A stretch of DNA of 34,668 nt from Chloroflexota bacterium (lineage in GTDB: Bacteria; Chloroflexota; Anaerolineae; Aggregatilineales; Phototrophicaceae): assembly GCA_026706445.1 (NCBI GenBank), contig JAPOYT010000272.1:1-34668 (forward strand), written 5' to 3'. Below the pieces are notes generated by a model. The model was not told the DNA's origin, did no database searches, and was given only the letters and a program-made list of their open reading frames with translations. Position numbers and translations under genes: made by a program. Below, one piece after another: positions 677 through 34,054 of the stretch. Each line of letters opens with the position of its first letter. Position 1 is the stretch's first letter.

Positions 677-1366
677 CTAGCCGCAAACCCCGGCGGTCGT
701 GACATAATCAGCGCTGATCCAGCCGGAAACGCCACGGTAATCCACCTTGAACCAGCCCGACTCGCGCGCGGAAGCGGTCAAAGTCGCATTCGCCGGTACC
801 AAACCGATGCGATTGCCAGCCGGTCCATCGCGAAAGTTGAGGACATGGGTAGTGGTCACCCGGCATGTGCGCGGGTCGGCTGAAGCCGCGACTGAAGCGA
901 GTTGCATTGTACTTGCTTCGCCATATTCGCTGGCGCCGATATCGCAGCCGCCGCCGATCGGACGCGGCTTGCCCGCCTGATCGGTCGCGAGACAAAACTG
1001 CGCGTCAGCGGCATCCACCAGCGGGCTGCCTTCAATTGGCGGGAAGTAACCGGGCGCGCCGGTCATCTCTCCCAGCATTGGATCCTCAGCCGTCAGCGAC
1101 CCGCAGGTGCCGTCCTGGCTGAAGTTTCCGCGGCTCACATCCACATTGCCGTAGCAATCTTGCAACCGGCTCCAGCCGCGACCCACGACGACGCTGTTGC
1201 GCAGAACAGCCGAGCCGTCCCATTGCCGAATCGCAGCCCCTTCGCCATACGAAGGCGAATTGGCCAGCAAAGTCAGGTGCGTCATCGTCAGCGCGCCACG
1301 GCTAATTGAAATGGCGCCGCCACTGCTCGAGCTATTCCTATGGAATGTGCTGTTTTCAATGGTCAT
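677..1366 (-). CDS. Beta-helix repeat protein, C-terminal part with bacterial SH3 domain (frameshifted from the upstream frame)
   Basis: This frame carries the end of the large beta-helix protein. It begins at MTIENSTFHRN, the same helix rung sequence (ISNSTF, VRNSTF) found in every upstream unit, followed by MTHLTLL, ALRNSVVVG-like and GGGCDIGASEY blocks. The last ~60 residues form a bacterial SH3 domain (LNFRDGPAGNRIGLV, then SGWFKVDYRGVSGWISADYV), which often binds cell-wall material. The ATG overlaps the stop of the preceding frame (ATGA). However, homology continues upstream in this frame as GGAIEVSGGQ, so it is the continuation of one gene after a frameshift near 1395-1415, not a separate gene. 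Confidence 0.7.
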   Translation of the reverse strand: MTIENSTFHRNSSSSGGAISISRGALTMTHLTLLANSPSYGEGAAIRQWDGSAVLRNSVVVGRGWSRLQDCYGNVDVSRGNFSQDGTCGSLTAEDPMLGEMTGAPGYFPPIEGSPLVDAADAQFCLATDQAGKPRPIGGGCDIGASEYGEASTMQLASVAASADPRTCRVTTTHVLNFRDGPAGNRIGLVPANATLTASARESGWFKVDYRGVSGWISADYVTTAGVCG

Positions 1367-4300: not shown

Positions 4301-4800
4301 CGCTTCTGTATCGCATCGCCACCGCCCGAGCGGTTATCCACCAGGGTCAAATGGGTCATGGTTGTGGTGGCGCCGCTGACCATGATGCCGCCGCCTGCGC
4401 CGCCATAATTGTCGCTGAAGGTGCTATTGGATATGTTCGCTTCGCCGTTCAGCGTTTCGATGGCGCCGCCCCAATGGGTCGCTTCATTCTTGAGGAATGC
4501 GCTGCCGCTGACATCCAGGCTGCCGCCGCTGAAAAGGATGGCGCCGCCGTGCTGCGCGTGATTGTTGTAGAAGGTGGTTTTCTCAGCGACGAAGTCAGCC
4601 CCGCGCTTGAGCAGAATCGCGCCGCCGTCGGTCTCGCCGCGCGCTTGCGTCAGCGTCAGATTCCGGATCGTCAATTCACCGTCATCAACCACGAAAATCT
4701 GAAAGGCATCGGCGCCGCTGATCGCATAACCATTGCCATCGATTGTGATCGCGCCAGTAATCGATGGCAGCGCCTGGCTGAGAACAATGTCCTCCAACAA
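1363..4800 (-). CDS. Secreted right-handed beta-helix repeat protein, main frame (broken gene)
   Basis: This frame encodes 1145 residues of tandem beta-helix. Each unit of ~335 residues runs: a cysteine block (CTLSNQILSANTN), GGCPAGTSHDII, LTEDITLSAPLP, ITIEGNGHTISG, repeated NSTFxxNxAxxGGGAI rungs, MTHLTLVDN, GNFSxDGSC and GGGCDIGAFESA, then a proline/alanine linker. This matches secreted choice-of-anchor Q or polymorphic-outer-membrane-like helix proteins, probably surface or wall associated; the ligand is unknown. The nominal TTG start at 4800 is not a true start: the real signal peptide lies upstream in another frame (4801-4940), and the protein continues past the stop at 1363 in a third frame (677-1366). 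The whole gene is therefore 677-4940 with two frame breaks. These may be real decay or sequencing error, since ~1 kb repeats are easily misassembled. Confidence 0.75.
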   Translation of the reverse strand: MLEDIVLSQALPSITGAITIDGNGYAISGADAFQIFVVDDGELTIRNLTLTQARGETDGGAILLKRGADFVAEKTTFYNNHAQHGGAILFSGGSLDVSGSAFLKNEATHWGGAIETLNGEANISNSTFSDNYGGAGGGIMVSGATTTMTHLTLVDNRSGGGDAIQKRDGNAYLRNSLIGGEGGALDCAGGLDQSIGNFSQDGSCAPRPGGDPLLGELTGAPGYFPLLDGSPAVDAADAEFCLETDQTGKARPLGGGCDIGAFESATASPPEATPEPELCTFVDAILAANSNQAVGACPPGTSHDIIYLVEDITLSAPLPLINGAITVEGNGHTISGDDRFRVFVVSGPTLTLRNLTLTRGRSTEDGGAIMVQDSGQLVVENVTFHNNSSERGGGALATRGGDAKMSISNSVFHDNSAGAGGGAIIVNGGEAAISGSEFRDNEAAYHAGALEGLSGTVDVRNSTFHGNEAPTAAGILVSGATMTMTHLTLVDNLAGGGEADGIFKRGGFARLRNSIVVGSGGAFNCTGGLDESRGNFSADGSCSPLPGGDPLLAAVAGSPGYFPLLDGSPAVDAADPDLCLETDQVGKARPLGGGCDIGAFESANAAPAEAVAASQQQSGCALSDQILAANTNMAVGGCPAGTSHDIISLTEDITLSEPLPLIKGTITIEGNGHTISGGNRFPIFSIIGGKFTIRNLTLTAGYSAQDGGAILAQGAELIIENATFTNNRSEKGGGAISTLPNNISLTISDSQFIGNSSGSGGGAVLAYTGTTTITGSAFVDNEAERFGGGVEAFVGTVRISNSTFAGNRAGRAGAILVSGATTTLTHLTLVDNMSDLGEGDAIHKRSGTVYLRNSIVAGDGNGLECTGGLDQSAGNFSEDGSCTLLPGGDPLLDDLTGSPSYFPLLNGSPAVDAADSQFCLGADQAGNARPLGGGCDIGAFESATAAPAAPTPVPTECTLSNQILSANTNTAVGGCPAGTSHDIITLTEDITLSAPLPHINGTITIEGNGHTISGDNQFQIFVVVGRKLTINNLTLTRGRAKGAGGAIVVRNNAELVVNNSVFEGNSIGSVDIGENRFTGGYGGALGTQRFSGRISVNDSVFKDNEAEFGGGAIYVNGGTANINGSAFISNRGSGLAARSRSAVAR

Positions 4801-11570: not shown

Positions 11571-12596
11571 ATGACTTCCGACGACCGCGCTGTCAGCTCA
11601 GACGAAACCCCGCAAGCGGAGAAGGCGACTCTTTCTCCCGATCAGATTAAAGGGGCAGCCGCCCAATTCGGCGATGCGCTCGGCGAGACTTCCCCCAAGC
11701 CAGTCGCGCAAATCGGGCAGTTGATCGAAAAATGCGGCTTGCCCTTCGTCGAAAAGATCATGGCGGAGACGGAGGCAATCGAAGCGGAAGGCGGCTTGCT
11801 CACGCACGATCGGAAGCGCCGGCGATCCAAGGGCGGCGTCTTCTTTTATTTGGCGAAAGGGCAGATGGACGCGGGGCTGCGCGCGCAGATCTTCCCCAAT
11901 TTCGGCAAAGGCGGCGATGGCACGATCGCGCCGCCGGGCATCGAGTGGGACAAACGCATCGAACCGATGAATACGCTGCGTCGCGATGCCGGCCAAATCA
12001 GCGGGCTGACTGTGACGCTGAGCGGGCGGCCCGGCAAACTGCATATCGATGGCAGCAGTGTTATGACCGTCATTGAACAGCGGCAAGTCAAGGCGCCACC
12101 CTACCCCAAAGGCGTACCCCACTTCGATACTGTAGACGGCGTCACAAGCTACTATATCTTCATGAGCCTGCGCCACTGGAAGCGGGTGGAAAAGGCGCTG
12201 GAAGACGAATCCGACTTGCTCGTGGTCGAAGGCAGCGCCGTGTATGATGCCAAGCTGGAAGGCATCACCGTACTGTCAACGCGCGTTTCCACCAAGAAGC
12301 TCGATTATCAAAAGCGCAAAGCCAAGACGCTGGGCGCGCAAAGCAGCGCTACGCCGACTGCTAAAGACGAATCGGTGGAACGAGAGGCATCTGCAACCGA
12401 CGAGCGCGAACTGTCCGGTCTGCCGCCGGAAGAAGCCGAAAAACTACAGCAGCTTCAAAAAGCCGCTGACAATCTGCGCCAAAAGCTGGCCGCGATGGAA
12501 GAAGGCGGTCAAGAGTCGGGACAGAAAATGACGCGCCGCTTGCTCAAGCAAACCGAGAAGCAGATCGCCACGCTAAAGCACCGATATAACCGCTAG
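11571..12596 (+). CDS. PHAX-type RNA-binding domain protein with C-terminal coiled coil
   Basis: This 341-residue protein probably binds RNA. Residues ~25-105 resemble the RNA-binding domain of the eukaryotic phosphorylated adaptor for RNA export: IGQLIEKCGLPFVEKIMAET, EAIEAEGGLL, then RKRRRSKGGVFFYLAK, comparable with the GGL-x-GSRRRTPGGVF core of PHAX. A central domain (~120-235) contains YYIFMSLRHWKRVEKALE and VVEGSAVYDAKLEGITVLST. The C terminus (~275-341) is a charged heptad-like coiled coil ending KQIATLKHRYNR. There is no signal peptide or membrane segment. I believe this domain occurs in some Chloroflexota, but its role in bacteria is not established. Located alone between menA and a small membrane protein. 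Confidence 0.75.
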   Translation: MTSDDRAVSSDETPQAEKATLSPDQIKGAAAQFGDALGETSPKPVAQIGQLIEKCGLPFVEKIMAETEAIEAEGGLLTHDRKRRRSKGGVFFYLAKGQMDAGLRAQIFPNFGKGGDGTIAPPGIEWDKRIEPMNTLRRDAGQISGLTVTLSGRPGKLHIDGSSVMTVIEQRQVKAPPYPKGVPHFDTVDGVTSYYIFMSLRHWKRVEKALEDESDLLVVEGSAVYDAKLEGITVLSTRVSTKKLDYQKRKAKTLGAQSSATPTAKDESVEREASATDERELSGLPPEEAEKLQQLQKAADNLRQKLAAMEEGGQESGQKMTRRLLKQTEKQIATLKHRYNR

Positions 12597-14467: not shown

Positions 14468-15556
14468 CTATGCGAAATCGACCAGTGATCCTTGTACTTG
14501 CGTCAGCGACCACTCAACGTCGGGCATCTGCAGGAAACCGTCGACGATCGGCGGCGCGAAACGCAAGTCGTCGTCCGCCTTCAAGTAAAAGCTGCACTCA
14601 CTGGCGCAGTTCACCGCCGCCTGCCCAGCGAAAACCGCCGCCTGCATACAACCCAGCAGCGAGCTCGCCTGCGAACCAATCATCGCATCTTTGTCCGCGT
14701 CAAGGCACATTTCCAGCATTCGCCGCGACTGCGAGTAACCGCTGCGCGCCGTCTTGATATTGAGAATGTCGAAGCTGTCGAAAGTGATCTCGCGCTCCAG
14801 ATCGCTAAGGGTGAAGGCTGAGTCATCGGCGATGATCGGCATCCGGCAATCCCGCCGCAGCTGCCGCCGTTCTCGCAAGAGGTGCGTCGGCAGCGCTTCT
14901 TCGCAATGCATCACGCCCAAGTCATGCAGCTCGTTCAAAACCGACGCGGCGCTTTCGGCAGCGAGCGTCTCGTTGGCGTCAACATAGAATCGCGCCGCCG
15001 GATAGGCTTCTATCAAGCGCCCTATCGTCTCAATCTCGCCGTCGATGTCGCGCCCGAACTTGACCTTGAAAACGCGCAAGCCGGCTTCGTAGGCAGCGCT
15101 CACATCAGCAGCCACCGCAGCTGACGATCCGGCGCTCACGATTGTGCTGACTTGAATCCGCTCCCGCGTCGCCCCAAGGTAATCCGCGAGTCTTTCACCG
15201 CGACTGTTCGCCAGCGCCTGATGCAGCGCCATATCCAGCGCGCCCTTGGCCGTGTTGTTGTTCTTGAAAAGCGCCAGCCGCGCGGAAAGCGCTGCGACGG
15301 ATTCGAAGCCGTCTACCTCGGCGCCAAGCAGCGGTGGCGCCAGATGCTCGGCGACAATATGCAGGATGGAGGCTTGCGTCTCGCCATAGATGCTCGGTCG
15401 CGGAGTCGCCTCGGCGATGCCGACCGCGCCATCAGCCAGCTCAACCCGAATCAGCACATGCCTCAGGCGTCGCAGTTCATGGCCGCTGCCCCAGGTCAAG
15501 CCGCCCCTCAGCGGAAGGTCATAAGGCGCCGCGTTAATCCGCGTTATCGCTGGCAT
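14468..15556 (-). CDS. Enolase-superfamily enzyme, dipeptide epimerase/muconate cycloisomerase-like
   Basis: This enzyme of 362 residues abstracts a proton next to a carboxylate using paired lysines. Active-site features in order: the KxK motif in FKVKFG (~residue 167), metal ligands D in FYVDANE, E in HCEEALP and D in IIADDSAF, and the second lysine in LNIKTARSG. The order and spacing match the MLE subgroup that includes L-Ala-D/L-Glu epimerases. Next to an M55 D-aminopeptidase, an epimerase acting on dipeptides is the best guess, though muconate-type or N-acyl-amino-acid activity cannot be excluded. Its ATG lies 13 bases inside the end of the upstream P-loop gene, so the two are likely co-translated. 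Confidence 0.82.
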   Translation of the reverse strand: MPAITRINAAPYDLPLRGGLTWGSGHELRRLRHVLIRVELADGAVGIAEATPRPSIYGETQASILHIVAEHLAPPLLGAEVDGFESVAALSARLALFKNNNTAKGALDMALHQALANSRGERLADYLGATRERIQVSTIVSAGSSAAVAADVSAAYEAGLRVFKVKFGRDIDGEIETIGRLIEAYPAARFYVDANETLAAESAASVLNELHDLGVMHCEEALPTHLLRERRQLRRDCRMPIIADDSAFTLSDLEREITFDSFDILNIKTARSGYSQSRRMLEMCLDADKDAMIGSQASSLLGCMQAAVFAGQAAVNCASECSFYLKADDDLRFAPPIVDGFLQMPDVEWSLTQVQGSLVDFA

Positions 15557-16371
15557 GTTGTCCTCTCGCGACCAGCTTCGTTACTCGCGACCATTATGCC
15601 GCGCGCCGCATCCGCCACACCCGCCGGCGACAGACCGTCGACATCAATATGATGATAGTTGGCACAACCGCGCCCGTCGGCAAAGGGGTCGAACCCATAA
15701 TTGACCGACTCGGCTTGGACGATGGCAAGCGCTTCCCCCGTGATCTCGCCCGCTTTGAAGAGCGCAAGCGCTTCCCGCTGCAATCCGCTTGGCAAGAACG
15801 AAATATCCGCGCTGCCGCCCGCTCGGTCAAACTCGTCTCGCCGTCCGCTCAATCGGCGCAGGCGCGTCAAGGGGTTCAGCGACAGCTCGACAATTTGCCA
15901 GCGCGGGAAATGCCGCAGCGCGTATCGAATCTCGTTTTCACCGCGGATGCCCTCACTGAGCAAAACCTGGTGGCGGTCATCAGCGAGGTAGAGCCAGGAG
16001 AAAGCCGCCGCCATCCCGCCCGGCACATGCTCGGCGAATTTGCCGGTATAAGCAAAGCGCAGCCTGCGGTCCGGCGCCGGAACAATCGGCTCGCCCGCCA
16101 GCGTCTGCGCGGTCGGGATCGCGATCCAATCGGCGATTTCGCGCCGCGACGGGATTACACTTGCGCTGCCGCCGCTCATGCGCCCACGCAGCAGTTTCAA
16201 GGTCGTCGACTTGCCCGTGCCCGTCAACGCGACCAGCATCAGCAGCGCCTGATCGCCGAGCGGACGAAATCCCGCGCGCGGCAAGAGGCTCGTCAAGGGG
16301 TACTTCTCCGCCAATGGGATGTCCAGCCTTGGGTAAACCTCCCGCAGGTAATACTCGCGCCAATCCATCAT
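15544..16371 (-). CDS. P-loop NTPase/kinase-like protein of unknown substrate
   Basis: This protein of 275 residues has a Walker A motif ALTGTGKSTT near residue 50 and otherwise kinase-like features: LAGEPIVPAPDRRLRF, SEGIRGENEIRYAL, and a C-terminal HIDVDGLSPAGVADAARGIM that resembles the end of several nucleotide or sugar kinases. No ABC signature is present, so it is not a transporter ATPase. It heads an operon with the epimerase-like gene (13-base overlap), which suggests a phosphorylation step or regulation linked to that substrate. The start MMDWREYYL at 16371 may be the second ATG. Confidence 0.6.
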   Translation of the reverse strand: MMDWREYYLREVYPRLDIPLAEKYPLTSLLPRAGFRPLGDQALLMLVALTGTGKSTTLKLLRGRMSGGSASVIPSRREIADWIAIPTAQTLAGEPIVPAPDRRLRFAYTGKFAEHVPGGMAAAFSWLYLADDRHQVLLSEGIRGENEIRYALRHFPRWQIVELSLNPLTRLRRLSGRRDEFDRAGGSADISFLPSGLQREALALFKAGEITGEALAIVQAESVNYGFDPFADGRGCANYHHIDVDGLSPAGVADAARGIMVASNEAGRERTTCQR

Positions 16372-16538
16372 GCCATCACCGTTTTCCTAAATCGCAACCA
16401 TCTTACTCGCATCGGAGGGCGCAACAAGTCCTACCCCTACGAATACGCCATCGGATCGAGCATTAGGGCGAGACAAGGGGCGCGTTGACACTGCCCGTCT
16501 CTCGCCTCTACAATTTCCGCTCTGGGTGACCACCTTAG

Positions 16539-16615: not shown

Positions 16616-17587
16616 ATGCCCCTGTTTGACATGCCTTTGGAAGAATTGCGCGAATACAAACCAGCCCGCGCTGAACCGAGCGATTTCGACCAATTCTGGG
16701 CTGCAACCTTGGCCGAGGCGCGCGCGCATGACCTTGATGCCGTCTTTGAGCCGACCGATTTCGGCTTGGCGACCCTTGATGTCTACGATGTGACCTTCTC
16801 CGGCTTCAATGGCGACCGCATCAAAGGCTGGTATATGCGTCCGCGCGCGAGCGAAGGTCCGCTGCCGGCATTGGTCGAATATATCGGTTATGGCGGCGGA
16901 CGCGGCTATCCCCATGAATGGCTGGCATTCCCAGCGGCCGGCTTCGCTTATCTGGTGATGGACACGCGCGGCCAAGGCAGCGTCTGGAGCCGCGGCGATA
17001 CGCCCGATATCGGGAGCGGCGCCAACCCGGCGGCGCCTGGCTTCATGACACAAGGCATCCTCAATCGCGACAGCTATTATTATCGCCGTCTCTACACCGA
17101 TGCCGTTCGCGCGGTCGAGGCGATCAGGGAGCGCGCCGAGGTCGATGCGACGCGGATTGCGGTCACCGGCAGCAGCCAGGGCGGCGGCTTGTCGATTGCG
17201 GTCGCCGGTTTGCTGCCCGAGGTCAAAGTTTGCCTGGCTGATGTGCCATTCCTTTCGCACTTTCGCCGCGCCATCGATATCACGCCCCGCGACCCCTACC
17301 CGGAGATCGCGCGCTACCTCCAAATACACCGTGACAAGATCGACGCCGTTTTCCAGACGCTCAGTTATTTCGATGGCATGAATTTCGCCGCCCGCATGAA
17401 GGCGCGCGCGCTCTTCTCAGTCGGCATCATGGACACCATTTGCCCGCCATCGACCGTCTACGCATCCTATAACCACGTGACAAGCGAGAAAGAGATCAGA
17501 GAATACTACTTCAACGATCACGAAGGCGGCGGCGTTCAACATATAGCCGAGAAGATCCGCTATCTGCGAAAGCGCTGGCTGGCATGA
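16616..17587 (+). CDS. Acetyl xylan esterase / cephalosporin-C deacetylase family (CE7) hydrolase
   Basis: This alpha/beta hydrolase of 323 residues probably removes acetyl groups from sugars or similar small esters in the cytoplasm. The N terminus MPLFDMPLEELREYKP and the motifs FSGFNGDRIKGWYMRP, YGGGRGYPHEW and DTRGQGS are those of the CE7 family. The nucleophile serine is in TGSSQGGGLS (~residue 186), the aspartate in MDTICPPSTVYASYNH and the histidine in NDHEGGG. No signal peptide is present. The ATG has a strong AAGGAG site. The stop overlaps the next gene's ATG, so it is coupled to the MBL-fold hydrolase. Confidence 0.9.
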   Translation: MPLFDMPLEELREYKPARAEPSDFDQFWAATLAEARAHDLDAVFEPTDFGLATLDVYDVTFSGFNGDRIKGWYMRPRASEGPLPALVEYIGYGGGRGYPHEWLAFPAAGFAYLVMDTRGQGSVWSRGDTPDIGSGANPAAPGFMTQGILNRDSYYYRRLYTDAVRAVEAIRERAEVDATRIAVTGSSQGGGLSIAVAGLLPEVKVCLADVPFLSHFRRAIDITPRDPYPEIARYLQIHRDKIDAVFQTLSYFDGMNFAARMKARALFSVGIMDTICPPSTVYASYNHVTSEKEIREYYFNDHEGGGVQHIAEKIRYLRKRWLA

Positions 17588-18420
17588 GCCGGGCGCAGGT
17601 CGTCATCCTCGGCAGCGGCACGCCGAATGCCGAAGCCGATCGCGTCAGCGCCGGCGTGGCGGTCGCTGTCGATGATCAGCCTTATCTCTTCGATTGCGGC
17701 CATGGCGTCGTCCAGCGCGTTGTGCAAGCGCATAAGTCGGGCAAAATCGCCTGGGACACGACCGCGCTGACACGTCTATTCGTCACCCACCTGCACGCCG
17801 ATCACAGCGTCGGCTTGCCCGATCTGCTTTTCACGCCCTGGATTCACGGACGTGAAGAAGCCCTCCTCGCCGTCGGTCCGCCCGGGTTCAAGCGCATGGC
17901 GCGGCACATTCTCTTGGCTTATGAGGAGAATATCCGCGAGCACCGCGCCGCCCACCCCAGCAGCGAGCAGGGCTACAAGATCGATGCGCGCGAGATACAG
18001 GACGGGCTCTGCTACCAGGATGAGCGCATTGAAGCGCACAGCCTGCCCGCCGATCATGGCGGTCTCGCCGCATTCAGCTATAAGGTCGTCACGCCCGTCG
18101 GAACTGTCGTCATCTCGGGCGATACCAAACCGGTGGCCGCTTTCGCCGACTGGGCGCGCGGCTGCGATATTTTGATCCACGAAGTTTATTCCTCAGCGCA
18201 ATTCGCGAACCTTCCGCGGGATTGGCAGCGTTATCATTCACGCGTTCATACGTCCGCCGCCGAACTCGCCGCCCTGGCGCAAGTAATACGCCCCCGTTTG
18301 CTCCTGCTTTATCATCAGCTCTTCTGGGGGCTTAGGCCCGACGAACTGGTCGCCGAGGTTGCGGACGGCTATGACGGGCGCGTCGTCAGCGCAAATGACC
18401 TGGATGTTTTCGATCTGTAG
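17584..18420 (+). CDS. MBL-fold metallo-hydrolase (RNase Z/arylsulfatase-like)
   Basis: This metal-dependent hydrolase of 278 residues starts VVILGSGTPN, like RNase Z and AtsA-type enzymes. Zinc ligands are in THLHADHSVGLPDL (~residues 62-75), H in LPADHGG, D in VISGDTKP and the late histidine in LYHQLFWG. The RNase Z exosite arm is not evident, so a small-molecule ester or sulfate hydrolase is more likely than tRNA processing. It overlaps the upstream esterase by four bases (ATGA) and is followed 24 bases later by a nitroreductase-family gene, forming a three-gene operon. Confidence 0.82.
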   Translation: MSRAQVVILGSGTPNAEADRVSAGVAVAVDDQPYLFDCGHGVVQRVVQAHKSGKIAWDTTALTRLFVTHLHADHSVGLPDLLFTPWIHGREEALLAVGPPGFKRMARHILLAYEENIREHRAAHPSSEQGYKIDAREIQDGLCYQDERIEAHSLPADHGGLAAFSYKVVTPVGTVVISGDTKPVAAFADWARGCDILIHEVYSSAQFANLPRDWQRYHSRVHTSAAELAALAQVIRPRLLLLYHQLFWGLRPDELVAEVADGYDGRVVSANDLDVFDL

Positions 18421-18444: not shown

Positions 18445-19128
18445 ATGCCAAGCAATCCCGTTTTCGAGCCACTGAACTTTGCGCGTCTCGGCGAGACCGA
18501 GCAAAGCCGGCGCTCCGAGGAATTCGCCGGGCGCATGCTCAGGCGGCGCAGCGTCCGCCATTTCTCACGCGAGCCCGTGCCGATCGGCTTGATTGAGAAT
18601 GCCATCCGCGTCGCCGGTTCCGCCCCATCGGGCGCCAACCAGCAGCCCTGGACCTTCGTCATCGTCAGCGACGCGGGCTTGAAACGGAAGATTCGCATCG
18701 CTGCTGAAGCCGAAGAGAAGGAGAGCTACCAGCGGCGTATGAGCCAGGAGTGGCTGGACGCGCTGACGCCGCTTGGCACCGATTGGCGCAAACCCCATAT
18801 CGAGGACGCGCCCTACGTCATCGTTGTTTTCCGCCAGGCTTACGGCCTCCGGCTCGATGCCAACACCGGCGAAGAAAGGCGCTATCGACATTATTACAGC
18901 GAGGAGTCTGTCGGCATCGCTGTCGGCTTCTTGCTCGCTGCCCTGCATATCTCGGGCTTGGCCGCCTTAACGCACACGCCCAGCCCGATGAAGTTCCTGA
19001 GCGAGATACTCGACCGACCCGCCAACGAACGCGCCTTCGTCTTAATTCCCGTGGGCTATCCCGCTGCTGAGGCCGAGGCGCCCGCCATTCGCAAGAAACC
19101 GCTGGAAGACATCATGGTCCGGCGCTGA
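18445..19128 (+). CDS. Nitroreductase-family FMN enzyme, iodotyrosine deiodinase-like
   Basis: This protein of 227 residues belongs to the FMN-dependent nitroreductase fold and is most like iodotyrosine deiodinase, which removes halogen reductively from halotyrosines. FMN-binding motifs are RRRSVRHFS (33-41) and APSGANQQPWTF (60-71), with LTHTPSP near 191. The residues that close over the zwitterion of halotyrosine in the human enzyme (E157, Y161, K182) appear as E91, Y95 and K116 with identical spacing (4 and 21). Flanking blocks YQRRMSQEW, RYRHYYSEESVGIA and VLIPVGYPAAEAE also match. The physiological substrate in this bacterium is unknown. It is last in the esterase/MBL operon, followed by a terminator. 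Confidence 0.88.
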   Translation: MPSNPVFEPLNFARLGETEQSRRSEEFAGRMLRRRSVRHFSREPVPIGLIENAIRVAGSAPSGANQQPWTFVIVSDAGLKRKIRIAAEAEEKESYQRRMSQEWLDALTPLGTDWRKPHIEDAPYVIVVFRQAYGLRLDANTGEERRYRHYYSEESVGIAVGFLLAALHISGLAALTHTPSPMKFLSEILDRPANERAFVLIPVGYPAAEAEAPAIRKKPLEDIMVRR

Positions 19129-20236: not shown

Positions 20237-21226
20237 ATGATGAACGAACGCGACCAATTGGTCGAGCCGGACACTTTGGAAACCATCACTGCGTCCCTAC
20301 CCGATCGCCAGCGACCACTATTCGAAACTCAATTAGACGGCGACGAAGAACCGCGCCAACAGTGGCTTGGCTTGCGCCAAGATTCAGACAGTTCCCGCAA
20401 CGACGCTGTCCTCGAATGCCGTGACAACCTAGAGTTTTTGCGAGAGCAGCCGAACAATAAATTCAAGCTTGTCGTTACTTCGCCGCCCTATAATATCGGC
20501 AAGAGCTATGAATCGCGCTCGCCGATGGATCAATACTTGGCAGACCAGGAAGAGGTTATCCGCGAATGCGTTCGGGTATTGCATCCAAAAGGCTCGATCT
20601 GCTGGCAAGTGGGCAATTTCACGGACAAAGGAGAGATCTTGCCCTTGGATTGTTTGCTCTTCCCGATATTTCGCGGGTTCGGCTTGAAGCTCCGCAATCG
20701 TATCATTTGGCATTTCGGTCACGGCTTGCACTCAAGTAAGCGGCTATCAGGTCGCTACGAGACCATCAATTGGTGGACCAAAGGTGATGACTATACCTGG
20801 CATTTGGATCCGATCCGCGTGCCGTCGAAATATCCCGGCAAACGACACTTCAAAGGACCGCGCAAGGGAGAATTGTCTGGTAATCCAAAGGGAAAGAACC
20901 CAAGCGATGTTTGGGAATTTCCAAACGTCAAGAACAACCATCCGGAGAAAACCAATCATCCCTGCCAGTTTCCGGTAGAACTGGTTGAGCGCCTGGTGCT
21001 ATCGATGACTGATGAAAACGACGATGTGCTGGATCCCTACGTCGGCGTCGGCTCTTCTGTCATCGCCGCGATAATGCACAATCGCAACGGCTACGGCTGT
21101 GACATAGTCGAAGAATACATCTCGATCGCCCGCCAGCGAGTCCGTGACTTGCAGGGGGGCCGCCTCAAAACGCGACCGATGGGCAAACCCGTCTACGACC
21201 CAATGCTGCCCAATGGCGGACATTGA
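20237..21226 (+). CDS. Type II DNA methyltransferase (beta-class, probably N4-cytosine) of a BglII/BstYI-type system
   Basis: This 329-residue enzyme methylates an exocyclic amino group in DNA using S-adenosylmethionine. The catalytic motif IV TSPPYNIGKSYE lies near residues 81-92 and precedes motif I (DPYVGVGSSVIAA, ~267-279), the beta-class order. SPPY fits an N4-cytosine enzyme, but adenine cannot be ruled out. The N-terminal ~55 residues are acidic and outside the catalytic core. The stop overlaps the next start by one base (TGATG); that gene is a BstYI-like endonuclease, so the expected target is RGATCY. Start at 20237 or the adjacent ATG at 20240. Confidence 0.88.
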   Translation: MMNERDQLVEPDTLETITASLPDRQRPLFETQLDGDEEPRQQWLGLRQDSDSSRNDAVLECRDNLEFLREQPNNKFKLVVTSPPYNIGKSYESRSPMDQYLADQEEVIRECVRVLHPKGSICWQVGNFTDKGEILPLDCLLFPIFRGFGLKLRNRIIWHFGHGLHSSKRLSGRYETINWWTKGDDYTWHLDPIRVPSKYPGKRHFKGPRKGELSGNPKGKNPSDVWEFPNVKNNHPEKTNHPCQFPVELVERLVLSMTDENDDVLDPYVGVGSSVIAAIMHNRNGYGCDIVEEYISIARQRVRDLQGGRLKTRPMGKPVYDPMLPNGGH

Positions 21227-21837
21227 TGCGGATCGCAGCACAATACTCCCACCTCAACGGCTTGGAATACATGCTCGTTCACCACAACGACTTGTGGGAA
21301 GAGATTCAGTTGGTCATTGCCAATGTTGATGCCGAAGCCTGCAAGACAAAGGAGTCCAAAGAAAAGACAATGCCGGGCAGGATGCTGTATTCGCCCAAAG
21401 ACATGAACGATGAGTTCAAGCTCAGCTTTGAGAGCTTAGGATGGAAGCAGCGGAGGCAGACCTTTTACGTAACAGACGACGAACGTCTAATGCGAAGCAT
21501 TTACAGCCGGCCAGATGATGTTCAGAAACGCGAAATCGAAGCGGCCGGTCGTGAGCCAATTATGTCCTACAATCAGACCGACTTTGTCAAGAACCGGCTT
21601 GCCGTCGAGGTGCAGTTCGGCAAGTATTCTTTTGTAGCGCACGACTTATTTGTGAAACATCTCAGTTTCTTCGTCGCCGATATCATCGACGTCGGTATAG
21701 AAATCCTGCCGATGAAGCAAATGGAGCGAGATATGTCGTCTGGCGTTCCGTATTACGAACGGGATCTTGTCAACGTAATTCGACAGGGTCGCGGTGTTCC
21801 TGCCGTTCCCCTGATCTTGCTTGGCGTCGTTCCCTAG
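21226..21837 (+). CDS. BglII/BstYI-family type II restriction endonuclease
   Basis: This 203-residue endonuclease is strikingly close to BstYI throughout: MRIAAQYSHLNGLEY, DAEACKTKESKEKT, SYNQTDFVK, AVEVQFGKYSFVAHDLFVKH, DVGIEILPMK and NVIRQGRGVPAVPL. The catalytic residues of the family fall at D119, E128 and Q130 with the D-x8-E-x-Q spacing. It should cut unmethylated RGATCY as a dimer; that specificity is inferred from similarity. The ATG at 21226 overlaps the methyltransferase stop and is preferred over the TTG one codon upstream. No frame break is visible, so the system looks intact. Confidence 0.93.
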   Translation: MRIAAQYSHLNGLEYMLVHHNDLWEEIQLVIANVDAEACKTKESKEKTMPGRMLYSPKDMNDEFKLSFESLGWKQRRQTFYVTDDERLMRSIYSRPDDVQKREIEAAGREPIMSYNQTDFVKNRLAVEVQFGKYSFVAHDLFVKHLSFFVADIIDVGIEILPMKQMERDMSSGVPYYERDLVNVIRQGRGVPAVPLILLGVVP

Positions 21838-28667: not shown

Positions 28668-29060
28668 TCATTCTCGGCGCGTGAAGGCGCGGCAATCGAT
28701 CATGAGCTTGCCCTTGATCCGATTGCATTCGGCGCAGAGGAGCTGGAGATTGTCAAGCTGTGACAAGCCGCCCCTTGCGATGGGAATCACATGATCCAGC
28801 ACCAGCTTTTCCCCCGCCCCGCAATTGGCGCAGCGCTCGCCCCCATCGGCCGCAAGCCGCCGAAACCAATCGCGAGAATGCCGCCGCAGCGTCGCCCGTT
28901 CGCGCCGCTTAATTTGGGGCGGAACCGCCCATTTAGGCGGTCGCGCCAGAATCAAGGGGGCGTATCGCCGGCCCGCGCGCGCGAAAAAGCGGCGGATGTC
29001 GCTTTCCGGCGCCCCGCAGGCGCAGCGATGGCTCAGTCGTCCGCAATAGCTGCAGTACAT
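28668..29060 (-). CDS. HNH endonuclease
   Basis: This small nuclease of 130 residues has an N-terminal zinc-ribbon-like stretch (MYCSYCGRLSHRCACG) and a complete HNH domain near the C terminus: RCANCGAGEKLVLDHVIPIA (split from the following RGGLSQLDNLQLLCAECN), with the DH of the metal site, the central asparagine and the second CxxC. It probably nicks or cuts DNA; the target is unknown. The frame is open further upstream, but ATG 29060 gives the natural MYCSYC start, overlapping the 3' end of nagA by 28 bases, so it may be translated from the nagA message. Confidence 0.8.
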   Translation of the reverse strand: MYCSYCGRLSHRCACGAPESDIRRFFARAGRRYAPLILARPPKWAVPPQIKRRERATLRRHSRDWFRRLAADGGERCANCGAGEKLVLDHVIPIARGGLSQLDNLQLLCAECNRIKGKLMIDCRAFTRRE

Positions 29061-30217
29061 CTTGCCTGCGCCTGGTAGACCAATTCGCCGCCGATGAGGG
29101 TCGCTTGCACACCCAGCGCTTCGTCCCAGAGGATGACATCGGCATCGGCGCCGACCGCCAGCGAACCCTTCTGCGGATACATACCAATCGAACGCGCCGG
29201 GGCGCGCGTCAGCATCGGCAGCGCTTCTTCCAGTGTCAAATCGCAAAAGCGCATCATATTCTTCAGCGCCTCTACCATCGTCAGCGTGCTGCCGGCCAGC
29301 CCGCCGTCGGATGTTCGGGCTTCGCCGTTCGTCACCGTGACGAATCCATCGACCGCGGCATATTCGCCATCGCCCAGCCCGGCCGCGCGCATCGCATCGG
29401 TGATCACGACGACGCGCTCAATGCCGACGAGTCGCGCCAACATGCGGATCACAGCCGGATGTACATGGATGCCATCGGGAATGAGCTGGAAGGTGACGTC
29501 GGGGTTTTCGAGCGCGGCGACGAAAAGACCGGGCTGCCGGTGGTGGATGCCGGGCATGCCATTGAAGGTATGCGTCACCTGGCTGGCGCCCGCAGCAAAA
29601 TAGCGCCCCGCCGCTTCATATTCGGCGCCGCTATGCCCAATAGACACGGTCGCGCCATGCGCCAGCGCGTCGCGCATCAAGCTTTCGCCACCGGCGATTT
29701 CCGGCGCCAAGGTGATCAGCTTGACCAGCCCGCTCTCGAGCCAGGGCCGGTATTCTGCGGCTTGAGGCTCGCGCAAGTGCGCCGCTGGTTGCGAACCGCG
29801 GTAATCGCGATTGAGGTAGGGTCCTTCGATATGAAGGCCGACTAAGGGCCTGTGCGCTCGTTTGGCGAACTTCTCTACCGCCTTCAGCGCCGTATGGATG
29901 CGTTCGGCCGAATCGGTCATGGTGGTGGCCAGAAAACTGGTCACGCCGCCGCGCGCCAGAAAATCACAGAGACCAGTCAAGGACGCCGGCGACGCATCCA
30001 TCACATCAAAGCCCATGCTGCCATGGATATGCAGGTCGACGAAACCTGGCAGCGTGTAAGCGCCGCGCCCGTCTATCCGCCGGTCGCCAGGCTGAGGCGC
30101 GACATCCGCTTCTGGCAGCAGACCGTCAATCACACCGTCGCAAAGGACGAGCGTGCGCCCGGCGACGAATCCGTCCTCCTGCCAAACGCGGCTGTTCTCA
30201 ATCAGAATTCGGGACAC
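29033..30217 (-). CDS. nagA: N-acetylglucosamine-6-phosphate deacetylase
   Basis: NagA removes the acetyl group from GlcNAc-6-phosphate, giving glucosamine-6-phosphate. The 394-residue sequence has the full signature: FVDLHIHGSMGFD (metal histidines), GLHIEGPYLNRDYRGSQPA (metal glutamate), SIGHSGA, VTHTFNGMPGIHHRQPG, IPDGIHVHP, the catalytic aspartate in VITDAMRAAG, and LAGSTLTM. The start is GTG at 30217 (weak ribosome site). It is divergent from a SIS-domain/GH20/SIS operon, which would supply substrate and use the product. The 3' end overlaps the HNH gene. Confidence 0.95.
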   Translation of the reverse strand: MSRILIENSRVWQEDGFVAGRTLVLCDGVIDGLLPEADVAPQPGDRRIDGRGAYTLPGFVDLHIHGSMGFDVMDASPASLTGLCDFLARGGVTSFLATTMTDSAERIHTALKAVEKFAKRAHRPLVGLHIEGPYLNRDYRGSQPAAHLREPQAAEYRPWLESGLVKLITLAPEIAGGESLMRDALAHGATVSIGHSGAEYEAAGRYFAAGASQVTHTFNGMPGIHHRQPGLFVAALENPDVTFQLIPDGIHVHPAVIRMLARLVGIERVVVITDAMRAAGLGDGEYAAVDGFVTVTNGEARTSDGGLAGSTLTMVEALKNMMRFCDLTLEEALPMLTRAPARSIGMYPQKGSLAVGADADVILWDEALGVQATLIGGELVYQAQARCTAAIADD

Positions 30218-30223
30218 CAGATA

Positions 30224-30268
30224 TTCACCGGTGAAATTCCAAGTCTGCGCAACACGCGTGCCAGTATA
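30224..30268 (-). promoter_or_regulatory. Promoter and 12-bp palindrome in the divergent nagA/SIS region
   Basis: The minus strand carries an extended -10 TGTTATACT (TATACT at 30263-30268) ~45 bases before nagA. A perfect palindrome TTCACCGGTGAA (30224-30235) lies between it and the GTG start, well placed for a repressor to block nagA. It may also serve the divergent operon starting at 30386. Confidence 0.45.
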
Positions 30269-30385
30269 ACACTGATATTCAGCGCGTTGGCGACCGAAGC
30301 GCCGAGCGCCAAGACCTCGCCAATCGGCAAGCAGTGAAACTCTCTGTTAGAATGGCTGGGAGTCAAGCATATTCGGGGGCAGGTC

Positions 30386-31426
30386 ATGCCCGGCGGGCAG
30401 CATACATGGCAAGAAATCATGAGCCAGCCGGCGGTCTGGCAGGACGCCCTGGGCGCCTTTCGCGCGCTGCGGGAAAAGTTCGCCGCCTTCTGGATGGAGG
30501 CCGCCCCGGACCAAGTCATCGTCACCGGCTGCGGCTCGACCTATTATCTGGCGCTGACCGCCGCCCGCCTGTTGCGTCGCAGCGGCGTCGATGCCAGCGC
30601 TTGCCCGGCGTCGGAGCTTTTGCTGAATACTGACGCAATTTGCGCCCCGGGCCGGCGATACCTGCTGCTTACGCTTTCGCGCTCCGGCACAACCAGCGAG
30701 ACTGTCCGCGCGCAGGAGCGGTTCAAGTCGCGCATCGGCGCTTCGGTCATCACCCTAACCTGCGCTAGCAGCAGCCCGCTGGCGGGCGGCGCCGACCTCG
30801 CTTTCGCCATCGATGCCGCGCAAGAGAAGAGTGTGGCCCAAACGCGTTCCTTCAGCAGCATGGCGGTCATCGTTCAGCAGATGGCGGCGCAACTAGCCGG
30901 AAGGAGAGTGACAGACAGCAGCCAGTTGCCCGCCGTCTGTACTCAACTGCTTGAATCTCATGCTGGTTTGGCGCGTGCGCTGGCGGAAAACGCCGCAATC
31001 GAGAAGTTCTTTTTCCTGGGCATGGACGCGCTTTATGGCATCGCCTGCGAGGCAATGCTCAAGATGAAAGAGATGTCCCTCTCCTACAGCGAAGCCTATC
31101 ACACGCTGGAATTCCGTCACGGACCGATGTCGATGGTCGGCGAAGACAGCCTGGTCATCGGCTTGATCTCGCCCGAAGCGGCCAGGCACGAAATCCGCGT
31201 GCTGAACGAAATGGCTGATATGGGCGCCACCGTATTGGCAATCGCGCAGACTCGCATCGAGAATCACCAGACTGTCAGGCTGCCGGCGGATCTTCCAGGC
31301 TGGTGTACGCCCGTCTTATACCTTCCCGTCCTGCAGCTGCTCGCCTACCATCGCGCCCTGGTCAAGGGCTGTGACCCCGATAAACCGCATAATCTGAGCG
31401 CCGTCGTGTCGCTTGACGATATTTGA
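30386..31426 (+). CDS. SIS-domain sugar isomerase/deaminase (first copy)
   Basis: This protein of 346 residues consists of two SIS domains, like the isomerase half of glucosamine-6-phosphate synthase, with no glutaminase domain. Phosphosugar-binding blocks include VTGCGSTYYLALTAARLL, LTLSRSGTTSETVRA and, in the second domain, MLKMKEMSLSYSEAYHTLEFRHGPMS (shown in parts: MLKMKEMSLSYSEA, FRHGPMS). The ATG at 30386 follows GGGGGCAGG. It heads an operon with a GH20 hexosaminidase and a second SIS protein; a role in amino-sugar phosphate deamination or isomerisation (AgaS/FrlB-like) is likely. It shares only motif-level similarity with the second copy, so they probably differ in substrate. Confidence 0.82.
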   Translation: MPGGQHTWQEIMSQPAVWQDALGAFRALREKFAAFWMEAAPDQVIVTGCGSTYYLALTAARLLRRSGVDASACPASELLLNTDAICAPGRRYLLLTLSRSGTTSETVRAQERFKSRIGASVITLTCASSSPLAGGADLAFAIDAAQEKSVAQTRSFSSMAVIVQQMAAQLAGRRVTDSSQLPAVCTQLLESHAGLARALAENAAIEKFFFLGMDALYGIACEAMLKMKEMSLSYSEAYHTLEFRHGPMSMVGEDSLVIGLISPEAARHEIRVLNEMADMGATVLAIAQTRIENHQTVRLPADLPGWCTPVLYLPVLQLLAYHRALVKGCDPDKPHNLSAVVSLDDI

Positions 31427-31457
31427 TGGCGCCAGCCAGAGACAGGATGAATGCCCT

Positions 31458-33008
31458 ATGTCAGATATCACACTCTTTCCCCAACCGCAGCAACCGGAAC
31501 GCAAGCCCGGCCGCTTCACGCTCAACGCGCATACGCGCATTTTCGCCGGCGACGGCGCGCCAGGCGAGATGCTGGCGAACTATCTACGTCCGGCTACCGG
31601 CTTTGATCTTCCCGTGCAGCCGCTTGACGACGACATACTAGCGGACGCAACGAACGCGATCTTGCTGGTTCCGTCGGCTGACCCCCTTGCCGCCGAAGCG
31701 TACAAGCTGGATGTCAAGCGCGAGCGAGTTACTTTGCGCGCTGGCGGACGGAAGGGCTTTCTCCATGCAAGCCAGACCTTGCGTCAACTGTTGCCGCCGC
31801 AGATACTGGCCGATTCGCCGCAAGACGACGTCGCCTGGGAGGTTCCGGCTCTGAGCATCAGCGACGCGCCGGCTTTCGGCTGGCGCGGCTTGCACCTGGA
31901 TGTTGGGCGGCACATGTTTCCCGTCGACTTCATCAAGAAGTTCATCGATACGATGGCGTTTTACAAATTCAATACCTTCCATTGGCATCTCACGGAGGAC
32001 CAGGGCTGGCGCCTCGAAATCAAGAAATATCCGCGCCTGACCGAGGTTGGCGCTTATCGCGCGCAAACGCAGATTCCGACTGATCCGAATCAATGGGATG
32101 GCAAGCCCTACGGCGGCTATTACACGCAGGATGAGGCGCGCGAAATCGTCGCCTATGCCGCAGAGCGAGGCATCACCGTTATGCCGGAGATTGAACTGCC
32201 GGGCCACAGCCTGGCTGCCCTCACGGCCTATCCCGAACTTGGCTGCGTCGGAAGCGATTATCAAGTGCGCACGACCTGGGGCATCGACCCGAACATCTAT
32301 TGCGCCGGCAACGATGCCGTCTTCACATTCTTGCAAGACGTCTTCGAGGAAGCGCTGGCGATCTTTCCGTCAAGGTACATTCACATCGGCGGCGACGAGG
32401 CGCCAAAGGAACGCTGGGCCGCCTGCCCCAAATGTCAAGCGCGCATCAAAGCCGAAGGGCTGGCTGATGAGCATGAACTGCAGAGCTGGTTCATTCGTCA
32501 GATCGAAAGCTGGCTCAATGAACGGGGACGCCGCCTGGTCGGCTGGGATGAGATTCTGGAGGGCGGGCTGGCGCCGAACGCGACCGTGATGAGCTGGCGT
32601 GGCAGCGTTGGCGGCATCGCCGCCGCCAACGCCGGGCATGATGTGGTCATGACGCCGACAACTTACTGCTACCTGGATTATTACCAGCACGAAGACTGGA
32701 CGCGCGAGCCGCCGGCGATCGCTCGCACCTTGACGCTGGACCAAGTATGGCAATTCGTGGTCGCGCCCGAAGAAATCGCGCCGGACAAACAGCATCACAT
32801 TCTCGGCGGGCAGGGCAATATCTGGACGGAGTATATTCCCGACGCCGATCAAGTAGAATACATGGCATATCCGCGCGCCATCGCCATCGCCGACATCTTG
32901 TGGAATCATCCGAAAGAGCGAAGTGACGAGGCACTGGTGGAACGGCTGCGAGCGCATCTGCCCGGCCTCGATATGATGGGCGTAAATTATCGCCGGCTAG
33001 ATGAGTAG
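31458..33008 (+). CDS. Family 20 beta-N-acetylhexosaminidase
   Basis: This protein of 516 residues releases terminal beta-linked GlcNAc (or GalNAc) from oligosaccharides. The GH20 catalytic barrel shows GWRGLHLDVGRHMF, NTFHWHLTEDQGWRLEIKKY, MPEIELPGHS and the catalytic D-E pair in IHIGGDEAPKERW, then VGWDEILEGG and GGQGNIWTEYI. The GH20b-type N-terminal domain precedes it. There is no signal peptide, so it probably acts in the cytoplasm on imported chito-oligosaccharides or muropeptides. The frame is open from 31413, but ATG 31458 (MSDITLFPQP) fits the family and lies 31 bases after the SIS gene. Confidence 0.93.
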   Translation: MSDITLFPQPQQPERKPGRFTLNAHTRIFAGDGAPGEMLANYLRPATGFDLPVQPLDDDILADATNAILLVPSADPLAAEAYKLDVKRERVTLRAGGRKGFLHASQTLRQLLPPQILADSPQDDVAWEVPALSISDAPAFGWRGLHLDVGRHMFPVDFIKKFIDTMAFYKFNTFHWHLTEDQGWRLEIKKYPRLTEVGAYRAQTQIPTDPNQWDGKPYGGYYTQDEAREIVAYAAERGITVMPEIELPGHSLAALTAYPELGCVGSDYQVRTTWGIDPNIYCAGNDAVFTFLQDVFEEALAIFPSRYIHIGGDEAPKERWAACPKCQARIKAEGLADEHELQSWFIRQIESWLNERGRRLVGWDEILEGGLAPNATVMSWRGSVGGIAAANAGHDVVMTPTTYCYLDYYQHEDWTREPPAIARTLTLDQVWQFVVAPEEIAPDKQHHILGGQGNIWTEYIPDADQVEYMAYPRAIAIADILWNHPKERSDEALVERLRAHLPGLDMMGVNYRRLDE

Positions 33009-33022
33009 AGGTATGGAGTGAT

Positions 33023-34054
33023 ATGCACCTGCAAAAGGAAATCGCGCAGCAACCGGCCGTCATTGAACAGCTGCTGAACGATGGCCGGGCTTTGACCGAC
33101 GCCGTCGCCGCCGCCATCCGCGACTTCAATCCGGTATTCGTTTGCATCGCCGCGCGCGGCACTTCGGATAATGCCGCTCATTACGCCCAATATATGTTCG
33201 GCGGGTTGCTGCGCACACCGGTGATGCTGGCGACACCCTCGCTGCACACCGTTTACGAGACTGCGCCTGACCTTTCGCGGGCGCTGGTCATCGGCATCTC
33301 GCAATCGGGGCAGGCGGAGGATGTGCGGACGGTTTTAAGCGACGCGAACCAGCAAGGCGCCCTCACGCTGGCGATCACCAATTTTGAGGACTCGCCGCTG
33401 GCGCATACGGCGAAATACCATTTGCCGCTGCTGGCCGAGCGAGAGTTAAGCGTAGCAGCCACCAAGACCTACACCGCGCAACTGACCGTCATCGCCATGT
33501 TGACAAGCGCGCTGGCGGATAGCGACGCGATGCGGAAGGATCAGAGCGCCCTGCCCCGGCTTTCAGCGCAGGCGCTTCGCCTCGGCGAAGGGATTGCCGC
33601 CTGGGCGCAGCGCTATCGGTACATTGATCGCCTGGTCACATTAGGGCGCGGTTTCAATTACGCAACCGCCTGCGAGATCAGCCTCAAAGTTAAGGAGCTA
33701 GCTTACATCGCCAGCGAAGGCTACAGCGAAGCCAATTTCCGCCACGGTCCCATCGCCGCCATTGACCGTGGACATCCGGTCATCCTGGTGTCGCCACATG
33801 GCAAAAACCTCGCGGGGATGGTGGATATGTGCCAGCGGCTCAACGAGTTGGGCGCCGAAACCTTGGTCATCAGCAACAACAGCGACCTGCTTGGCCAAGG
33901 CCGGCAAGCCATGACGATACCATCGACGCCGGAATGGCTCAGCCCGATCCTGGCGGTGATGCCCGGTCAGATCTTCGCCATGCAGCAGGCGCTGGTCCGC
34001 GGCTACGAAGTCGATAAACCGCGAGGCTTGTCAAAAGTGACGATTACGGAATAG
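33023..34054 (+). CDS. SIS-domain glucosamine-6-phosphate deaminase (NagB-II)-like
   Basis: This protein of 343 residues has two SIS domains: CIAARGTSDNAAHYAQYMF and IGISQSGQAEDVRTV in the first, and GRGFNYATACEISLKVKELA followed by EANFRHGPIAAI in the second, ending YEVDKPRGLSKVT as in GlmS C termini. This matches NagB-II enzymes, which convert glucosamine-6-phosphate to fructose-6-phosphate and ammonia in bacteria that lack classic NagB. It would complete the pathway after NagA. It lies 14 bases downstream of the hexosaminidase with GGAG at good spacing. Assignment to deaminase rather than another aminosugar isomerase is inferred from context. Confidence 0.85.
   Translation: MHLQKEIAQQPAVIEQLLNDGRALTDAVAAAIRDFNPVFVCIAARGTSDNAAHYAQYMFGGLLRTPVMLATPSLHTVYETAPDLSRALVIGISQSGQAEDVRTVLSDANQQGALTLAITNFEDSPLAHTAKYHLPLLAERELSVAATKTYTAQLTVIAMLTSALADSDAMRKDQSALPRLSAQALRLGEGIAAWAQRYRYIDRLVTLGRGFNYATACEISLKVKELAYIASEGYSEANFRHGPIAAIDRGHPVILVSPHGKNLAGMVDMCQRLNELGAETLVISNNSDLLGQGRQAMTIPSTPEWLSPILAVMPGQIFAMQQALVRGYEVDKPRGLSKVTITE

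Follow-up and report, generated by a model that had tools for sequence, protein, structure and literature searches.

The stretch of DNA analysed here, which comprises 34,668 nucleotides and is referred to as the window, contains on its forward strand (positions 18445 to 19128) an open reading frame with an ATG start, the translation of which is a 227-residue homologue of iodotyrosine deiodinase (IYD) with the fold of FMN-dependent nitroreductases, the residue triad E91/Y95/K116 and, on the side of the flavin, T178. Two genes on the same strand precede it. The first (16616–17587; ‘AXE1’) encodes a protein of the CE7 acetyl xylan esterase/cephalosporin-C deacetylase family, as is evident from a PF05448 score of 393.4 bits (cut-off 21), an E-value of 4e-124 for acetyl xylan esterase 1vlq, and the presence of RGQ at residue 118, GSSQGG at 185 and HE at 302, corresponding to what we take to be the CE7 motifs (RGQ, GXSQG and HE). 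The second (17584–18420) encodes an MBL-fold hydrolase of the RNase Z/PNGM-1-like type with an HLHADH motif at residue 69, its nearest relatives being PNGM-1 and RNase Z. The reading frames of AXE1 and MBL overlap by 4 bases, and 24 bases separate the MBL stop codon from the IYD start, so that the close neighbourhood with a CE7 esterase and an MBL hydrolase described in a first-pass annotation of the locus is confirmed. A promoter-like site (TTGACA-18-TACAAT, 11 of 12 positions; 16485–16514, forward strand) ends 101 bases upstream of the AXE1 start; it is a consensus match only, and two such sites were found between positions 16300 and 19500 when 0.8 are expected in shuffled sequences.

When the translated protein was compared with PDB chains using phmmer, the IYD of Haliscomenobacter hydrossis emerged as the best match (5ko7_A, E 2.5e-71), followed by the human and mouse enzymes (E 3.8e-54 for human 4ttb_A to 4.6e-53) and, in third place, by 6pz0 (E 1.6e-29), after which the next proteins drop to E 4.5e-14. 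With the values obtained for 5ko7_A and 4ttb_A, the resemblance to IYD is not due to chance. In Pfam the broad nitroreductase family PF00881 alone exceeds its cut-off, no NCBIfam model does so for this protein, and the BluB model TIGR02476 yields 58.6 bits where its cut-off is 150, so that the protein does not qualify as a BluB. Since Pfam thus provides only the broad family, and NCBIfam nothing, ‘nitroreductase’ is probably the label that automatic annotation would assign.

The IYD of H. hydrossis (5ko7, 5ko8, 5krd), an enzyme with known dehalogenase activity from what is presumably a member of the Bacteroidota, and thus of another phylum than that of the window, exhibits 56.0% identity over 216 residues, is similar in length, and shares both the E/Y/K triad and a THTPSPM segment with the window protein, which is longer by five residues located within 139–147. 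For human and mouse IYD/DEHAL1 (4ttb, 4ttc, 5yak, 3gfd, 3tnz; structural Z-scores up to 28.6), residues E157, Y161, K182 and T239 are all matched, and the aligned human stretch displays 47.1% identity over 210 residues. Mammalian IYD possesses an N-terminal membrane anchor, whereas the alignment to the human enzyme begins at residue 9 of the window protein and leaves no space for one; we infer that the enzyme is soluble and cytosolic. Structure 6pz0, which we take to be the IYD of Thermotoga neapolitana, has the IYD fold and name in common with the window protein (35% identity, 183 residues aligned, Z-score 24.4), and its alignment starts only at residue 25 of the latter. BluB and other PF00881 nitroreductases likewise share fold and family, but BluB (2isj) lies far from the structural model described below (Z-score 19.0, r.m.s.d. 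3.2; VIA-align). As passages of a review put it, IYD is present from mammals to bacteria (PMC13078365), and the window protein is an IYD of the already known bacterial kind.

The printed phmmer alignment places human E157, Y161 and K182 at E91, Y95 and K116 with both identity and spacing retained, exactly as had been claimed for this gene. T178 aligns with human T239, which we take to be the Thr (or Ser) near N5 of the flavin in IYD, and R34, R35, S36 and R38 as well as P61, S62 and G63 are likewise identical between the two proteins; the functions considered here for the E/Y/K/T residues are those of the IYD literature. Translation, alignment and model together locate the segment with the lid residues at codons 91–116 (18715–18792, forward strand), where the model exhibits helices at 77–97 and 101–110, with K116 immediately ahead of a further helix at 117–121. 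In an alignment of 74 rows, which comprises the window protein and 73 of 80 loci with relatives (left out were L038, L040, L042, L045, L046, L048 and L059), E91, K116 and T178 are invariant, as are E88, W103, T176 and H177, while position 95 is Tyr in 73 rows and Trp in one. The quartet E/Y/K/T is therefore complete in 73 of the 74 rows, that is, in 72 of the 73 loci besides the window protein. The Tyr to Trp replacement, found in a Myxococcaceae relative (L075, 8001–8645), represents a natural lid variant.

At the four positions, two PF00881 paralogues of the same genome, encoded on contigs C241 and C61, carry R/I/R/C and P/M/A/T, with the alignment there being unsure for proteins so remote; the PF00881 loci on contigs C193, C163 and C192 were left out of this comparison. 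The two paralogues are in line with the earlier remark that bacterial nitroreductases usually lack the lid, but the remark is misleading if bacterial IYDs are thereby implied to be rare, because one scan yielded at least 583 relatives at E ≤ 1e-3 and, among those loci of the best 80 whose residues were compared, nearly all retain the complete quartet.

The AlphaFold2 model of the monomer, calculated with the 74-row alignment as input, has a mean pLDDT of 92.6 and a pTM of 0.89. In VIA-align the best 12 rows are all IYD entries, headed by human 5yak (Z-score 28.6, r.m.s.d. 1.1, 218 residues aligned), with 4ttc (Z-score 28.5) and H. hydrossis 5ko8 (Z-score 28.3, r.m.s.d. 1.1), both containing iodotyrosine, close behind; a gap separates the lowest IYD row (Z-score 23.9) from the first non-IYD row (19.1). 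Foldseek returned IYD chains only in its 25 best rows, 5ko8 being first. The recognition of the gene as that of an IYD homologue is thus borne out by phmmer, by the alignment of the triad and by the modelled fold. According to VIA-align, the ligand-free model aligns over 217–219 residues with human, mouse and H. hydrossis chains that contain iodotyrosine or fluorotyrosine, over 187 residues with ligand-free 4ttb, and over 200 with ligand-free 5ko7; the longer fit to the ligand-bound chains would fit a lid that is ordered in those chains. IYD is a domain-swapped homodimer with FMN bound at the interface.

Taken with the family's known chemistry, these comparisons make it very likely that the window protein uses FMN to dehalogenate free halotyrosines reductively, like the IYDs of H. 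hydrossis and mammals. In the IYD mechanism described by Rokita and co-workers, which involves the lid, FMN and one-electron steps, E91, Y95 and K116 would shut the lid on the zwitterion of the substrate, whether iodo-, bromo- or chlorotyrosine, and keep its phenol above FMN, and the reduced flavin, tuned by T178, would then pass electrons singly to yield tyrosine and halide. One may ask instead whether the protein shares fold and appearance with IYD but is a general reductase of nitro compounds or quinones, acting on other substrates. Membership in PF00881 and the lack of any NCBIfam model above its cut-off would agree with such an assignment, and a single residue can reportedly switch between dehalogenase and nitroreductase, as the title of a 2015 paper by Mukherjee and Rokita is said to convey. 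Moreover, the nitroreductase family catalyses mixed reactions, according to parts of a published account (PMC7538488). The triad together with the T239 equivalent in 73 of 74 rows, and a model that is nearest to IYD by a wide margin in both VIA-align and Foldseek, nevertheless render a general reductase quite unlikely.

Judged by record titles, the relatives of the halotyrosine dehalogenase candidate come from groundwater and from many phyla, and the closest named ones are Chloroflexota MAGs, both statements referring to the matches listed. A tree computed by a quick method, with SH-aLRT support only and very long branches for the human protein and the paralogue, groups the window protein with members of its genus among Chloroflexota; no starred set of this tree holds the window protein. 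At E ≤ 1e-30, every one of the 34 genus genomes carries the IYD gene; elsewhere in the family it is present in 15 of 27 genomes, and in the remainder of the order in 10 of 40. When genomes were drawn evenly from the class, at least 94 of 396 possessed it at E ≤ 1e-40, or at least 83 of 385 once the 11 genus members are set aside, these counts being lower bounds with at most seven candidates scored per genome. The gene is thus common in the group as a whole, with a patchy occurrence beyond the genus and a complete one within it. The genus is a single lineage, and its 34 genomes do not represent 34 independent events; Fisher tests for the gene in the genus (1e-5 versus the family, 3e-21 versus the class sample) ignore kinship and are not relied on.

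Within the genus, the MBL gene adjoins the IYD gene in 32 of 34 genomes, with 23–347 bases between the matched stretches, while in the other two (G014, G015) the two genes lie on separate contigs and AXE1 is still found beside MBL (L137, L121). Relatives of both MBL and IYD occur in 7 of the 67 genomes searched outside the genus and share a contig in none of the seven, which are draft assemblies with MBL relatives of only 43–50% identity. Near IYD, relatives of AXE1 or MBL were detected in none of the 58 named loci outside the genus, seven of which are shorter than 6 kb. Clustering of open reading frames for 65 of the 80 loci (left out were L036, L043, L051, L054, L064, L071, L072, L073, L078, L082, L091, L092, L095, L107 and L108) revealed small sets of genes shared by close relatives, common families in a scattered distribution, and no shared partner gene of IYD outside the genus. 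Because no linkage outside the genus was detected in the genomes searched, and because it is broken in G014 and G015, we do not regard gene order as strong functional evidence: the AXE1-MBL-IYD order looks like a genus-level arrangement with little bearing on the function of the enzyme.

These data bear directly on the pathway proposed in the first-pass annotation, in which esterase, MBL hydrolase and IYD would jointly degrade one acetylated or halogenated aromatic compound. The tight gene order, with its short overlap and short gap downstream of a promoter-like site, and its conservation in nearly the entire genus speak for such a pathway. On the other hand, IYD parts from the pair in two genomes in which AXE1 and MBL remain together, MBL and IYD share no contig outside the genus, and the two neighbours belong to the CE7 and RNase Z/PNGM-1-like types. 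Furthermore, homogentisate dioxygenase (TIGR01015) was found in 0 of 34 genus genomes and 1 of 14 controls, and 4-hydroxyphenylpyruvate dioxygenase (TIGR01263) exceeded its cut-off in 0 of 34 genus genomes, all 34 of which exhibit weak matches, and in 1 of 14 controls; ring breakdown via homogentisate is therefore not supported. A joint pathway of the three proteins is thus very unlikely, and of the aromatic breakdown deduced from the operon, only the use of a halogenated compound is retained, which is favoured by a reductive-dehalogenase-family protein encoded elsewhere in the genome.

This protein of 405 residues is encoded on the reverse strand of another contig of the same genome, outside the window (contig C133; L141:1117-2334). 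With the reductive dehalogenase model TIGR02486 it scores 192.3 bits, above the cut-off of 160.35, whereas with the QueG model it remains below the cut-off (70.3 bits, cut-off 200). Among solved structures, tetrachloroethene reductive dehalogenases come closest (8q4h, E 4.1e-56; 4uqu, E 1.1e-51), followed by 4ras (E 2.8e-31). Two 4Fe-4S motifs are present in the sequence, the first 60 residues of which lack an RR pair. An assignment as the ferredoxin-like part of some other protein, based on Pfam (31.5 versus 24.3, profile positions 206–306), was overturned by TIGR02486. Scores above the cut-off of TIGR02486 were obtained for 31 of the 34 genus genomes, which here, too, count as one lineage, and for 6 of the 67 relatives from elsewhere; G008 and G018 have no match above the cut-off, and G014 has a partial one just below it (160.0 bits). 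Outside the genus, IYD is present in 5 of the 6 genomes with a TIGR02486 protein and in 20 of the 61 without (p 0.024), a comparison that ignores kinship and in which two of the genomes share one genus. We consider the reductive-dehalogenase-family protein, as assigned from its profile match, to support an organohalogen niche, short of proof.

Which organohalogens might be encountered is suggested by the provenance of the genus. Twenty-two loci (L029–L049 and L055) were assigned to genus genomes via contig coordinates, by eye, and among these named members a sponge origin could be traced through papers for 8 and suggested by the prefix only for 7, the remaining 7 (CO3638x, SB066x, 277c and UBA6055) being traced by neither route. 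Seven loci carry the isolate prefix ‘jk18x’, which is that of MAGs in a Caribbean Ircinia study (PMC9531527), bin20/MPMG00000000 appears in a table of Aplysina aerophoba symbionts (PMC5649159, table), and the prefixes RHO, COS and CAR fit sponge names as given in sections of a further study (PMC8163846). Spongin tyrosine is mostly (>90%) halogenated, according to portions of one report (PMC11906918), and excerpts of another describe halotyrosines in the skeletons of Ianthella, Aplysina, Hippospongia and Spongia, with nine halogenated tyrosines in those of Ianthella basta (PMC5334614). Because sponge skeletons are rich in halotyrosines, the removal of bromine or iodine from free tyrosine fits a sponge niche.

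Whether tyrosine itself might be the purpose of such a reaction can be judged from the biosynthetic capacity of the genus. PDH_N, indicative of tyrosine biosynthesis, exceeds its cut-off in all 34 genomes, strongly so in 32, so that salvage is needless for tyrosine supply, and tyrosine auxotrophy is not supported as a reason for it. With PDH_N present and homogentisate dioxygenase not found in any of the 34 genomes, we infer detoxification, with the tyrosine going back into the pool of amino acids, in preference to ring cleavage; the freed tyrosine would, without the homogentisate route, enter protein synthesis or another pathway. On balance, we consider the chances about even that the organism is a sponge symbiont in which the enzyme detoxifies bromo- and iodotyrosines of the host, derived from spongin or alkaloids, and recycles the tyrosine. 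It counts against this role that skeletal halotyrosine, bound in protein or in dityrosine cross-links, would need proteolysis first, and the wide occurrence of IYD (outside the genus, at least 83 of 385 genomes in the class and 15 of 27 in the family) counts against a sponge-specific gene.

Indeed, the same chemistry might serve a general cleanup of halogenated or otherwise oxidised tyrosines, independent of any sponge host. Relatives across many phyla and throughout the class, and the failure to find a common partner gene outside the genus in the 65 loci that were clustered, are what such a function would predict, and a general cleanup role remains likely because the distribution of IYD is so wide. 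As the account of the present gene it is a serious if somewhat doubtful contender: it does not match the completeness of IYD in the genus and its patchiness elsewhere, and it leaves the reductive-dehalogenase-family protein of 31 genomes unexplained. It was this protein that raised our estimate for host halotyrosine detoxification from slightly below even to even, and lowered that for general cleanup by a similar small step to its present tentative level. Combining the two candidate dehalogenases, it is tempting, though with somewhat less than even confidence (slightly raised, again, by the second candidate), to suggest that a Chloroflexota genus inhabiting sponges keeps an animal-type IYD as a core gene along with, in most members, a reductive-dehalogenase-family protein, and strips bromide and iodide from the tyrosines of the halogenated skeleton and alkaloids of its host.

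If this is true, the halogen cycle of sponges would have a flavin-based branch alongside the organohalide respiration of Desulfoluna. A study of sponge debromination covers organohalide-respiring Desulfoluna, and the words iodotyrosine and nitroreductase do not occur in the accessible parts of its text (PMC12203066). Among the papers listed in searches limited to the open literature, none has a title on IYD in sponge symbionts. It is thus the sponge context that is new here, since bacterial IYD and its structures are already known. To our knowledge, the physiological role of bacterial IYDs has not been settled. The present analysis adds one well-supported member to them and, if the ecological reading is true, would name a gene for halotyrosine turnover within sponges and provide bacterial IYDs with a natural substrate.

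Several other features of the window deserve mention. Downstream of the IYD gene, at 20237–21837 on the forward strand, an N4/N6 DNA methylase is followed by a BglII-type restriction endonuclease (PF01555, PF09195). Relatives of the two genes occur in L036, and of the methylase in L015 and L038 as well, while in the closest relative, L029, neither was found and its flanking genes are closer together; as judged from these sequences, the restriction system appears to come and go at one site. A second DNA-methylation locus on the contig (5255–6701, forward strand) consists of a Vsr mismatch endonuclease and an overlapping C5 cytosine methylase. The forward-strand gene at 11571–12596 encodes a bacterial protein matching the PHAX RNA-binding domain PF10258 (47.8 bits, cut-off 25), a domain that takes its name from a eukaryotic adaptor of RNA export, and relatives of it are found in the same region of L029, L031, L032, L042 and L043. 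On the reverse strand, a probable P-loop protein (15544–16371; GTGKST, by eye) with no match in Pfam or NCBIfam overlaps an enolase-superfamily gene, dipeptide-epimerase-like, after which comes an M55 D-aminopeptidase, and the same arrangement is seen again in loci of the genus, L029 and L031 among them. A large repeat protein (1363–4800, reverse strand) matches Chlamydia polymorphic-membrane-protein repeats and a pectate-lyase-like adhesive domain. Rfam has no match within the window at gathering scores. Finally, the region 29033–34054 encodes an amidohydrolase (NagA-like by eye), two SIS-domain proteins and a GH20 hexosaminidase, probably constituting a cluster for the use of N-acetylglucosamine, which would suit a chitin-bearing sponge host.
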